64,000 nucleotides of DNA, taken from assembly GCA_025057575.1 (NCBI GenBank), contig JANXBO010000008.1, positions 1 to 64,000 on the forward strand, read 5' to 3'. Below, one piece after another: positions 19,434-24,253 of this stretch. Numbering within the stretch: the first letter of the stretch is position 1; each line of letters begins with the position of its first letter. The notes under the pieces were generated by a model. It ran no database searches. It had not been told where the DNA came from and saw only the letters and a program-made list of their open reading frames with translations. Origin of the DNA: Candidatus Caldisaccharidevorator malaysiensis (GTDB lineage: Bacteria > Armatimonadota > Fervidibacteria > Fervidibacterales > Fervidibacteraceae). The position numbers were made by a program, and so were the translations under genes.

Positions 19434-19455
19434 AGAGCAATTGGGTCACCATCCG

Positions 19456-20496
19456 ATGAGAGGAATGATTTTGGCGGCGGGGGAAGGGACCCGTCTGCGC
19501 CCCTTAACCTATGCCCGACCCAAGCCCCTGGTCCCCATTTTGACGACGCCGATCATCTTTCATCTCTTAGAGTGGCTGAAGATGCACGGCATCTGGGAAA
19601 TCGCCATTAATAATTGGTATCAACCCCATTTGATTGAGGCGTTTGTCCGAGACGGATCGGCTTTTGGCTGTTCTGTTCGGTATTTGAGGGAACGGGTGCC
19701 GATGGGAACTGCCGGTGCGGTCCGAGCGATGGCACCCTTCCTGACAGAACCGCAAGAACCGATCCTGGTCGTTGGTGGCGACGAACTGGTGGACGTTGAC
19801 ATTGCCGAAATGGTTCAATTTCATAAAAGCAGGGGTGCGGCGGTCACCATCTCACTGGCTCAAGCTTCCAGCCCGTCTCAATACGGTGTTGTTATCACTG
19901 ATGAGACGGGTCGGATTAAAGAGTTCATTGAAAAACCGATTCAATGGTCGCAGCCAACAGCATGGGTCAATTCGGGCGTTTATCTCCTTGAGCCCTTCGT
20001 CTTGGACCTGATACCCGCTGACCAGTTTTATGACTTTGGCAGCCAACTCTTTCCCAGAATGGTGGCAGAAGGCTATCCTGTTTATGGTTTTTATTGGGAC
20101 GGATTCTGGGCGGACATCGGTCACATAGAAACATATTGGGATGCCAACTGGGCGGCGCTTCGGCAGAAGATTACCCTCTACCATTCTCCCCTAAGAGCAA
20201 CGCCCGACCATATTCATCTCCACCCCACGGCGGACATCGCTGACGGTGCCGTGCTGATTCCTCCTTGCGCTTTAGGAGCGCAGGTCGTCGTGGAACGGGG
20301 AGCAACGGTCGGACCGGACACCATCATCGGGGACCGTTCGGTCGTCAAATCTTCTGCCGTAATAGAGAGAAGCATCCTCTGGAACGATGTGACCGTGGAT
20401 GATGGGATGGTGCTCTGCGATGTGATCGTTACCGACGGCTGTTACCTTTCGGGGCGAGAACCGATTCGCAAAGCCTTGATCGTCTCCAAAAGATAA
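19456..20496 (+). CDS. sugar-nucleotide nucleotidyltransferase (mannose-1-P guanylyltransferase-like)
   Basis: 346 residues from ATG 19456. The nucleotide-binding motif [14 protein letters not shown] (about 3-16) is followed by K-P-L-V-P, the catalytic region V-G-G-D-E-L, E-F-I-E-K-P and W-A-D-I-G. The C-terminus is a short left-handed beta-helix. It activates a sugar-1-phosphate with an NTP; GDP-mannose or dTDP-glucose type cannot be told. Its position before the TagO/TagA-like fusion suggests supply of activated sugar for envelope polymers, with ahcY between them. Confidence 0.85.
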
Positions 20497-20509: not shown

Positions 20510-21778
20510 GTGGTGGCAATGGACTTTGAAATCAAGGACCTTTCCCTTAAGGATGAGGGACTCTTGCAGATTGAGTGGGCGGACCGCCAGATGCCGGTTT
20601 TGCGGAAGATTCGGGAAGAGTTTGAAAAAACGAAGCCGCTTACCGGCTGTGTGATCGGTGCCTGCCTCCACGTTACGAAGGAGACCGCTAACCTGGTTCG
20701 AACTTTGCAGGCGGGCGGCGCTACGGTCGCTCTTTGTGCCTCCAACCCCCTGAGCACTCAAGATGAAGTGGCGGCGGCTCTTGTGAAGGAATTCGGTGTT
20801 TCCGTCTTTGCTCTTCGGGGAGAGTCGTCTGAAGAGTATTACCGGCACATCCACGCCGTTTTGAATTTTCAGCCGAAAATCACCTTGGACGACGGGGCTG
20901 ACTTGGTCACGACCCTGCACAGAGAGCGCAGGGATCAACTGGGGCAGGTCGTGGGAGGAACGGAAGAGACGACAACGGGTGTGATCCGGCTTCGGAGTAT
21001 GTTTCGGCAAGGGGTCCTTGCCTACCCCATCATCGCCGTTAATGATGCGCAAACCAAATATTTGTTTGACAACCGCTATGGGACGGGTCAGAGCGTCATT
21101 GACGGGATTTTGAGGGCAACGAATCTTCTGCTGGCAGGGTCGGTGATGGTTGTCGCTGGTTATGGCTGGTGCGGGCGGGGGATCGCGATGCGGGCGAAAG
21201 GTGCCGGCGCTCGGGTCATTGTTACGGAGGTGGATCCCGTACGGGCGTTGGAGGCGGTGATGGATGGTTACGAGGTGCTGCCAATGAGTGAAGCAGCGCG
21301 CATCGGGGACATTTTCGTTACCGCAACCGGCGATACCGCCGTCATTCGGGAAGAACATTTTCGTCTTCTCAAAGACGGCGCGATCCTGTGCAACGCCGGT
21401 CACTTTGATGTAGAGGTGGATGTCAAAACTCTCCGATCGTTAGCGGTCTCTCAAAGAAAAATCCGACCGAACCTGGAAGAACTGACGATGGAGGATGGGC
21501 GACGGATTTTTTTGCTGGCGGAGGGGCGGCTCGTTAATCTGGCAGCAGCGGAAGGTCATCCGGCAGCAGTGATGGATATGAGTTTTTCTAATCAAGCGCT
21601 CGCTGCCCTTTACCTTTGGCAGCATCAAGGAGGATGGGCTCCCGGTGTGTATCCTGTCCCCAAGGATTTGGATGAACGGGTCGCCCGACTCAAATTAGAG
21701 AGTATGGGTGTTCATTGTGATGAATTGACCCCAGAGCAGGCGGCTTATCTGGCATCCTGGGAGGAAGGGACAGCATAA
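20510..21778 (+). CDS. ahcY: adenosylhomocysteinase
   Basis: 422 residues from GTG 20510 (AGGAAGG 5 bases upstream; GTG 20513 and ATG 20519 are alternatives). NAD-binding G-Y-G-W-C-G-R-G and the family motifs A-S-N-P-L-S-T-Q-D and N-A-G-H-F-D are present. It splits S-adenosylhomocysteine into adenosine and homocysteine, an NAD-dependent step that keeps methylation going. It ends ...Y-L-A-S-W-E-E-G-T and lacks the C-terminal Lys/Tyr tail of mesophilic enzymes, like the short archaeal and Thermotoga forms. Confidence 0.96.
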
Positions 21779-21819
21779 CAACGCTCCTCTGGTGAAGATA
21801 GCCATCGGAGGGACGACGG

Positions 21820-23496
21820 ATGACCGCTTTGGGGGTGGCGGCGGTCCTGACGGCTCTGGTGCGCACACTCAAGGGCAGCCTGACGAGTTATTACCTACCT
21901 TATGTCGTGTTCGCCGTCACTCTCCTCTTAAAGTCGGGACATCCTCTTGACGACCTAACAAGGGCAGCTTTTGTTTTGGGAGCGGGACTTTCTTCTCTCC
22001 TATCGGTCTTTTGGCAGAGGGAACTACTTCATTTAACTTTTGCAGCCCTTGCCTGTTCTGGCGGGGTCGCCATCACGACCATCAAAATCCCTTTTTCCCA
22101 CCAGTTTGTTGACTTAGGCGTTCTCTCTTTTCCCCTTTCTGTTGGGTGGTTATGGCTCTTTTCTGCCCTTTTTCGTTTCACAGCCCGCTTGCCAGGGCTG
22201 ACCGGTGCGGCGGGACTGGTCAGTGGTTTGACGTTTGCTGTGATCGTTTTGATAGCGGTGGCGGAACCCAACCAGTGGGCAGTGACTGCTGCTTTGTCGG
22301 CTGGTGTCGTCAGCCTATTCCTTTTAGGGCTTCCGATGGAGACGGGCGGAGCAGCGTCCTTGGGTGCTCTGCTGGCAATGGCGACGATTGTGGGCGCTCT
22401 AAAAAATACTGCCCTTCTCGTGTTCATCGTTCCTGCCCTCGTTTTAGGGGTGCCCATTTTGGAGGTCGCCTATCGTCTCCGCTCCCGCTTTTTCCTTTTT
22501 CCTCAGCGAAGGAGCCTGATGGACGTTCTGTCTCAACAGGGAGTCAACGAGAAGGCTATCCTCCGGATTTTAGTGGCTGGTCAGATCTATCTGGCTCTCC
22601 TTAGTCTCTGGCTGGTTTGGTGGATAGAGGTCCATTTCCTTGGAAAGTTAGCCCTGATGACGGTGTGGCTGTTGATGGGAGCGGGTCTTTTTTGGCTAGT
22701 CCTTCGCCTGTGCGCTGTGAGAAGAGGCAGTCCGGTAGCAGATTTTTTGGGCATTCCGTTAAGCACCCTCTCCCATAAGGAAGTGCTGGACTTACTGGAG
22801 CAGTTCATCCAGGAGGGGCGGTTCCACCAGGTGGTGACTTCGGACACATCGTCCGTTGTGCGGGCTCGGGAAGATGAAGAGTTTCGGGAGGTCGTTAAGA
22901 AAGCCGACTTGGTCACACCTGATGGGATCGGCGTCCTTTTAGGCGCCCGTCTTCTGGGCATTCCGGTTTACGAGCGGGTTTCAGGTGTGGACTTGGTCCT
23001 CTCTTTGTGTCAACGCGGGTCCGAAAAAGGATGGCGGTTCTACTTCTTGGGGGGACGACCGGGAGTTGCCCAGCAGGCAGCGGAAAATCTGAAAAAACGG
23101 TTCCCTGGACTCAAGGTCGTTGGCACCCATCACGGTTATTTCACCCCAGAGGAAGAGGAGAAAGTCATAGCAGAAATTCAGAAGGCGGCTCCGGATGTGT
23201 TGTTCGTCGCCATGGGGATTCCCAAGCAGGAAAAGTGGATCGCCCGCAACAGTGGGCAGCTGCAGGTGCCGATCTGTATCGGTGTCGGGGGTAGCCTGGA
23301 TGTGTATGCGGGTGTGGTCAGGCGAGCACCCGTTTGGGTGCAGCGGCTGGGACTGGAATGGCTCTACCGGGCTCTCCGAGAGCCCCATCGGTTCCCCCGC
23401 CTTTTAGCGATCCCCCGTCTTTTGGCACTTGTCCTAAAAAACCTTCTCGCTACTGCTACCAAAGGGGCTGATGAGGCTTTCCATAAAGGCTCTTGA
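21820..23496 (+). CDS. TagO-like membrane domain fused to WecG/TagA glycosyltransferase
   Basis: 558 residues. Residues about 1-300 contain eight or more hydrophobic helices that resemble the polyprenyl-phosphate GlcNAc-1-P transferase family (TagO/WecA), with L-P-G-L-x-G-A-A-G-L-x-S-G and V-P-I-L-E where the family has D-G-x-D-G-L-x-x-G and P-x-x-D. Residues about 320-530 form a TagA/CpsF-type transferase with T-x-D-T-S-S-V-V, V-T-P-D-G-I-G, Y-F-L-G-G and Q-E-K-W-I. TagA adds ManNAc to a lipid-linked GlcNAc. The membrane half seems to have lost catalytic aspartates and may only anchor or bind the lipid. Confidence 0.82.
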   Translation: MTALGVAAVLTALVRTLKGSLTSYYLPYVVFAVTLLLKSGHPLDDLTRAAFVLGAGLSSLLSVFWQRELLHLTFAALACSGGVAITTIKIPFSHQFVDLGVLSFPLSVGWLWLFSALFRFTARLPGLTGAAGLVSGLTFAVIVLIAVAEPNQWAVTAALSAGVVSLFLLGLPMETGGAASLGALLAMATIVGALKNTALLVFIVPALVLGVPILEVAYRLRSRFFLFPQRRSLMDVLSQQGVNEKAILRILVAGQIYLALLSLWLVWWIEVHFLGKLALMTVWLLMGAGLFWLVLRLCAVRRGSPVADFLGIPLSTLSHKEVLDLLEQFIQEGRFHQVVTSDTSSVVRAREDEEFREVVKKADLVTPDGIGVLLGARLLGIPVYERVSGVDLVLSLCQRGSEKGWRFYFLGGRPGVAQQAAENLKKRFPGLKVVGTHHGYFTPEEEEKVIAEIQKAAPDVLFVAMGIPKQEKWIARNSGQLQVPICIGVGGSLDVYAGVVRRAPVWVQRLGLEWLYRALREPHRFPRLLAIPRLLALVLKNLLATATKGADEAFHKGS

Positions 23497-24253
23497 GATT
23501 CTTGCCGACCACTTGCCGAACTGGTCCCGAAGACTTTTGGATTACCTTTACCCTCCTCGTTGTGGTGTCTGCGACACCTTTTGGGAACAGCCCATCTGTC
23601 CCTCTTGCCGGGAAGGGTGGGAGTTTGTGGAGCCACCCTATTGCCTTTGGTGCGGTCAGCCCTTTCCTAAGGTTCCCCAACCGTCCCCGTTATGCGGTCA
23701 GTGTCTTCGGGGTCGGTTCCGATTTGATGGAGCGCGCCCTGCCGTTCGCTACAGTGGGGTCGGGCGCCAAACGATTCATTCTTTAAAATTTCGCAGAAAA
23801 GCCAGGCTGGCAATTCCGATGGGGCAAGTAATGGCGGATCTATTGGTCCGGATGCTTCAAAAAGATAATGGGCTGTTACCAGAGCCTTGGCAAACGCCGG
23901 AAATAATCGTCCCCGTTCCCCTTCATCCCAAAGTTTACCGATTGCGAGGTTTCAATCAGGCGGAGCACCTGGCGAGGGAGGTGGCCAAGGGGTCCTGTGC
24001 AGCGATAGAGACTGACATTGTTGTTCAAGCCCGCTTGACGCGATCGCAGGCTACCCTTTCCGCCTCTGAAAGATGGGACAATGTGAGAGGCGCTTTTGCC
24101 GTTACCCGACCGGAACTAGTCAAAGGCAAAACCATTCTCGTTATAGATGATGTGATGACAACAGGGGCAACGGTCAACGAAATCGCTCGGGTCCTCAAAG
24201 AAGCAGGGGCTCAACGAGTCTATGTGATCGCTTTTGCCCGAGGACAAGTCTGA
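23471..24253 (+). CDS. comF: ComF-family phosphoribosyltransferase-like protein
   Basis: 260 residues, overlapping the preceding gene by 26 bases. Zinc pairs C-G-V-C, C-P-S-C, C-L-W-C and C-G-Q-C lie at the N-terminus. The PRTase fold ends with the PRPP loop V-I-D-D-V-M-T-T-G-A-T-V, and R-G-F-N-Q-A sits mid-protein. ComF takes part in DNA uptake in competent bacteria, but homologues are widespread in non-competent ones, so a role here is not shown. Confidence 0.9.
   Translation: MRLSIKALEILADHLPNWSRRLLDYLYPPRCGVCDTFWEQPICPSCREGWEFVEPPYCLWCGQPFPKVPQPSPLCGQCLRGRFRFDGARPAVRYSGVGRQTIHSLKFRRKARLAIPMGQVMADLLVRMLQKDNGLLPEPWQTPEIIVPVPLHPKVYRLRGFNQAEHLAREVAKGSCAAIETDIVVQARLTRSQATLSASERWDNVRGAFAVTRPELVKGKTILVIDDVMTTGATVNEIARVLKEAGAQRVYVIAFARGQV

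Follow-up and report, generated by a model that had tools for sequence, protein, structure and literature searches.

A TagA-type transferase fused to a TagO-like membrane domain that is dead by sequence

How lipid-linked sugars pass between successive membrane glycosyltransferases is poorly understood. In P. alvei, TagA and CsaB make a pyruvylated ManNAc-GlcNAc-PP-lipid (PMC6030368). The active site of T. italicus TagA comprises Asp65, Thr37, and Arg221; the enzyme requires a membrane for activity, its acceptor is embedded in the bilayer, and ordinary TagA is bound to the membrane peripherally via C-terminal helices (Kattke et al., PMC6493773). The polyprenyl-phosphate transferases (PNPTs) MraY and DPAGT1, members of the superfamily that includes TagO and WecA, dimerise (PMC6218659). 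The window analyzed here, a 64,000-nucleotide stretch of the Armatimonadota genome of Candidatus Caldisaccharidevorator malaysiensis (2.78 Mb, 91% complete, 102 contigs), carries a gene in which both kinds of enzyme are represented in one frame. The initial annotation had read it as a TagO-like half lacking the D-G-x-D-G and histidine motifs fused to an intact TagA, and the profile and structure matches described below, PF03808 among them, agree with this reading. The gene and its surroundings are as follows.

19441..20496, + strand: nucleotidyltransferase (sugar-1-phosphate type), two genes upstream of the fusion
20510..21778, + strand: S-adenosylhomocysteine hydrolase (ahcY), the gene upstream of the fusion
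21807..21812, + strand: GGAGGG, likely ribosome binding site read from the sequence, 7 nt before the ATG
21820..23496, + strand: fusion gene, pseudo-TagO membrane domain plus TagA (WecG/TagA/CpsF) transferase, ORF of 558 aa
21820..22728, + strand: N-terminal half, residues 1-303, TagO/WecA-like PNPT domain, catalytically dead by sequence, 11 predicted membrane helices
22741..23439, + strand: C-terminal half, residues 308-540, predicted TagA-type ManNAc transferase

The ORF begins with ATG and its frame is open, without a frameshift; helix 11 (residues 273-298) forms the link into the TagA half, and RNA folding of the start region is unremarkable. The ahcY gene adjoins the fusion in 6 of 18 Armatimonadota loci, in different families (that of the window and five others), and no functional reason for this adjacency is apparent. 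On the other side, a gene for a ComF-like phosphoribosyltransferase (23471-24253) overlaps the end of the fusion gene by 26 bases, and a homologue also lies downstream of the fusion in L187.

The C-terminal half is readily assigned. PF03808 matches residues 362-527 (E 2e-70, 236 bits against a cut-off of 27.4 in the Pfam scan), residues 308-539 match the solved T. italicus TagA (E 7e-68), and Foldseek aligns the model of the whole protein with 7n41/7mpk at a TM-score of 0.96. Residues T340, D368, R386, R517, R524, and R527 correspond to T37, D65, R83, R214, R221, and R224 of the T. italicus enzyme and are family-invariant; the three active-site counterparts (D368, T340, and R524) are invariant in 20 homologues. 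The TarA equivalog model of NCBIfam scores the fusion at 178, below its cut-off of 350. By its sequence, this half is a TagA/WecG-family (GT26) transferase with the catalytic residues present, as the initial annotation held, and UDP-ManNAc as donor with GlcNAc-PP-Und as acceptor would fit an epimerase-TagO gene pair elsewhere in the window's genome.

The membrane half is less easily recognized. Scanned alone as a single sequence, it gave no match in Pfam, NCBIfam, or PHROGs, so that some 300 residues of such fusion proteins go unlabelled, a warning for annotation pipelines. A family profile built from 20 homologues of this half, on the other hand, aligns with 18 intact TagO proteins of Armatimonadota over 298 columns (hhalign E 2.7e-36, probability 99.9) and with PDB MraY chains at E 1e-7; PF00953 is found individually in 4 of the 20 members, at best with 6.8e-10. 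With an AlphaFold2 model (pLDDT 78.5, pTM 0.74, helices 1-2 poorly modelled) as Foldseek query, the top 23 PDB hits were MraY and human DPAGT1 (best E 3e-5, probability 1.0), with TM-scores of only about 0.45. The structural likeness to MraY/WecA is thus present in both profile and model comparisons, which together indicate that the half has the PNPT superfamily fold (MraY/WecA/TagO) and shares its ancestry. A PNPT tree rooted on MraY places the dead domains inside the TagO/WecA clade and splits them from MraY at 100/100, which rules out an MraY origin; a joint clade of the dead domains of both phyla discussed below has a support of only 77/93.

To compare residues, we used a joint alignment of 17-18 active TagO and 29 dead domains, with positions given in intact TagO numbering. 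The corresponding sites in the window protein are the following.

21988..21993, + strand: Leu57-Ser58, where TagO has an invariant Asp-Asp pair; 2/26 homologues keep the first Asp
22165..22200, + strand: loop C, residues 116-127, A-L-F-R-F-T-A-R-L-P-G-L replacing N-x-x-N-x-x-D-G-x-D-G, second motif Asp in 0/28
22324..22353, + strand: loop D, residues 169-178, F-M-G-D-T-G-S in TagO, Asp lost
22402..22404, + strand: Lys195, extracytoplasmic TM8-TM9 loop, kept in 17/17 active and 27/29 dead domains
22489..22542, + strand: loop E, residues 224-241, D-x-x-H-x-H-H site of TagO, Asp280 and His286 lost in all

The losses concentrate at the catalytic, cytosolic positions. D164 of the DGxDG motif is retained in 0/28 dead domains, D280 and H286 in 0/29 each, N158 in 1/28, and D220 in 1/29, five positions invariant in active TagO that at most one of the 29 homologues keeps; D95 is retained in 2/26, and Asn210 occurs in none of the 16 that have a residue at that position. 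The window protein has A-R-L-P-G (A122, R123, P125, G126) at the D-G-x-D-G site and S-L-M-D (S232, M234, D235) at the H-x-H-H site, and a search across the domain for the missing catalytic residues found them nowhere else in this half, so both motifs are indeed absent. Scaffold positions, by comparison, are held: W149 in 28/28, G227, P258, and G292 in 29/29 each, K240 in 27/29, and P129 in 24/28; the TM9 proline, invariant (29/29), is P212 in the window protein. In place of H286, 23 of 29 dead domains have Asp or Glu, and relatives share R-x-x-L-H-[DE] here, which reads as a new motif rather than random decay. The signature of an active TagO/WecA GlcNAc-1-P transferase is missing from this half, which we regard as dead on the evidence of its sequence.

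Selection nonetheless acts on it. A dN/dS of 0.08-0.17 in close pairs (pS ≤ about 0.55, Nei-Gojobori) shows purifying selection on the dead half; that of the TagA half is 0.03-0.14. The fusion is found in about 67 of 291 Armatimonadota genomes: 65 matches form a clear upper class (E 4e-108 to 2e-52), to which G252 and G044 add two. Nearly all upper-class frames are about 500-660 aa long, with a few shorter ones such as those of G224 and G264 at contig ends, and of the remaining matches listed nearly all are TagO-like proteins standing alone in frames of about 300-470 aa; a dead domain by itself, unfused, was not seen among the matches listed for the 291 genomes. Every one of 61 relatives examined has intact PF00953 proteins besides the fusion, and nearly all fusion-bearing genomes of this set are without another TagA, so that the fusion takes the place of the ordinary enzyme.

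In a TagA tree, the Armatimonadota fusions group with one unfused member (support 88/70). This protein, L112 (114-992, + strand), has a TagA preceded by a single membrane helix; nested inside the fused clade, it has apparently lost the dead domain secondarily while keeping an anchor. A larger quick tree also places a long-branched unfused TagA, L027, beside the window protein; the careful tree did not include L027. A single fusion origin over both phyla has an AU p of 0.129 when L112 is allowed in and 0.011 when it is not. A fusion whose TagO half is intact did not turn up, the named-genome scan covering the best 80 loci, and one may exist. Other joined architectures were seen alongside. Two Armatimonadota frames of ∼1000 aa, L243 (2207-5305, +) and L244 (2112-5120, +), have an intact MraY/TagO-like domain near the N-end, the latter with an APH-type kinase domain at its C-end, and in L055 (1276-3186, +) and L059 (1288-3081, +) a TagO-like domain with its motifs present is followed by a long C-terminal region, which in L059 matches CoA_binding_3.

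The second phylum is Atribacterota, where a clade carries the fusion (∼20 of 50 genomes) and D-G-x-D-G is absent from all 15 copies fetched. Here the gene order is informative. In each of the 16 genomes listing both an intact TagO and a complete fusion, TagO and the fusion share a strand, TagO lies 0.3-1.3 kb upstream, and the genes run TagO-(epimerase)-fusion-MreD-PBP2-RodA: an NAD-dependent epimerase usually stands between the two, mreD follows, and in most genomes PBP2 and rodA do as well. L230 has TagO immediately next to the fusion, and in Atribacterota without the fusion TagA and TagO are unlinked. Judged by the trees, the Atribacterota fusion may share its origin with that in Armatimonadota or be independent of it. 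The long TagA frames fetched from Margulisbacteria/WOR-1 were considered as further TagO-TagA fusions and ruled out. Three join CsaB, a pyruvyl transferase, to TagA (L236, 1622-3517, -; L237, 682-2475, +; L238, 637-2310, +), linking TagA to the enzyme after it, the reverse of the fusion in the window, in which the enzyme before it is joined; a fourth (L239, 646-2580, +) has an N-terminal region weakly matching glycosyl-hydrolase family 88.

In the window's own genome, the second, active-type TagO that was sought is present, intact by its motifs (DD, DGLDG, HLHH), on a different contig from the fusion. It lies beside a non-hydrolysing UDP-GlcNAc 2-epimerase (WecB-type match, 488 bits), which would supply UDP-ManNAc. 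The genome also has a CsaB equivalog (223 bits against a cut-off of 213), an LCP ligase, and an SLH protein. TagB/TagF (PF04464), by which a classical wall teichoic acid pathway would be recognized, gave no match in this 91% complete genome, and its gene content does not point to that pathway. Taken together, these genes suggest a pyruvylated secondary wall polymer as the binding partner of SLH proteins, rather than a classical teichoic acid.

We consider it fairly likely that the fusion is a UDP-ManNAc:lipid-alpha transferase joined to a dead-TagO scaffold that docks at the site of lipid-alpha, most likely via the active TagO. The dead domain would be a membrane scaffold placing TagA beside freshly made undecaprenyl-PP-GlcNAc, and, since MraY, DPAGT1 and other PNPTs form dimers, we propose that it pairs with TagO itself. 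GlcNAc and then ManNAc could be added in direct succession, and TagA would no longer need its own C-terminal helices to find the membrane. Helix 10 ends outside in the MraY topology, and the extra helix 11 (273-298) would bring the chain back to the cytosol, where TagA must be. CsaB would probably pyruvylate the disaccharide and the LCP ligase attach it to the wall, where it would hold SLH proteins. Against docking at TagO, no close fusion-TagO linkage was seen in Armatimonadota, and MraY and DPAGT1 dimerise through different surfaces (PMC6218659); at least one lineage, that of L112, lost the domain and kept a single helix, so the domain is not indispensable.

A somewhat doubtful alternative is that the dead domain keeps the PNPT lipid groove, holds undecaprenyl-PP-GlcNAc, and presents the sugar to TagA without contacting TagO. 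The retention of TM9 with its invariant proline and of the other scaffold positions fits such a role, as does the bilayer-embedded acceptor that TagA needs (PMC6493773), but change has been greatest in those cytosolic loops by which active enzymes contact the sugar-phosphate head group, and holding the lipid would not by itself predict the strict gene linkage in Atribacterota. It is because of this linkage that we favour docking; the positioning of undecaprenyl-linked substrate by the dead domain, as the initial annotation had suggested, is a less likely role, close to but not the same as the one preferred here. Unlikely, too, is a mere multi-pass membrane anchor with neither a specific partner nor a ligand. 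Ordinary TagA does bind peripherally through its C-terminal helices (PMC6493773), and L112, within the fused clade, has a single helix instead; an anchor, however, would have no need of a full 11-helix PNPT fold with fixed positions, and specific residues, including the extracytoplasmic lysine, are invariant across two phyla at low dN/dS. That the domain now catalyses another reaction or acts in the manner of a transporter, for instance by moving the lipid-linked sugar, is very improbable: the R-x-x-L-H-[DE] motif that replaces the histidine motif in most members and the retained extracytoplasmic features could be taken that way, but the window's member has no His in its S-L-M-D and the N-terminal half holds no invariant set of acidic or other catalytic residues. 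Decay, misassembly, or an annotation artefact, with a disused TagO in frame with TagA by chance, would explain the lost catalytic residues, but is ruled out for practical purposes by an open frame, an architecture conserved in dozens of genomes of two phyla, and the dN/dS of both halves.

Docking of a dead TagO beside the active one has a wider form, which we put forward as a tentative possibility: a widespread pseudo-PNPT that serves as a partner subunit of TagO, in a TagO/pseudo-TagO-TagA complex that channels lipid-alpha to lipid-beta, perhaps with independent origins in the two phyla. What could not be seen at the outset is that two phyla conserve the fusion as a family, that purifying selection acts on it, and that in Atribacterota its gene is linked to that of an active TagO. 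The fold and the partner enzyme are known; the arrangement is new. We know of no earlier description of a pseudo-TagO-TagA fusion, and the literature searched, which covers subscription journals thinly, contained neither TagO-TagA fusions nor PNPT pseudoenzymes. The family offers a natural, testable case in which a dead copy of one enzyme is built into the next of its path, and it is relevant to how little-studied phyla assemble their wall polymers and to the question whether TagO dimers act as platforms.

Compared with known PNPTs (TagO/TarO/WecA, MraY of PF00953, and human DPAGT1), the dead domain shares the fold, the helix order, and the extracytoplasmic beta-hairpin, together with the invariant TM5 Trp, TM8-9 Lys, and TM9 Pro. 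Unlike them, it is without the catalytic Asp, Asn, and His residues, its loop 1 is shortened in the window protein, an extra helix 11 leads into TagA, and it was never found alone in the genomes examined. The TagA half has 46% identity over the aligned structure to its relatives (TagA/TarA, WecG, and CpsF of GT26, PF03808; e.g., T. italicus TagA, 5WB4/7MPK) and has the catalytic Asp, Thr, and C-terminal Arg residues in common with them; the position of T. italicus Asn39 is Asp342 in the fusion, where it is family-invariant. Whereas ordinary TagA is peripheral and switches from a soluble dimer to a membrane monomer, the TagA of the fusion is permanently tethered by a polytopic membrane domain. 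The secondary cell wall polymer route of P. alvei and B. anthracis (MnaA, TagO, TagA, CsaB, LCP) has an equivalent set in the window's genome; in P. alvei, however, tagO, tagA, and csaB form one transcript and TagA is a single-domain protein, whereas the window's genome has these genes in scattered places and its TagA carries a fused pseudo-TagO.
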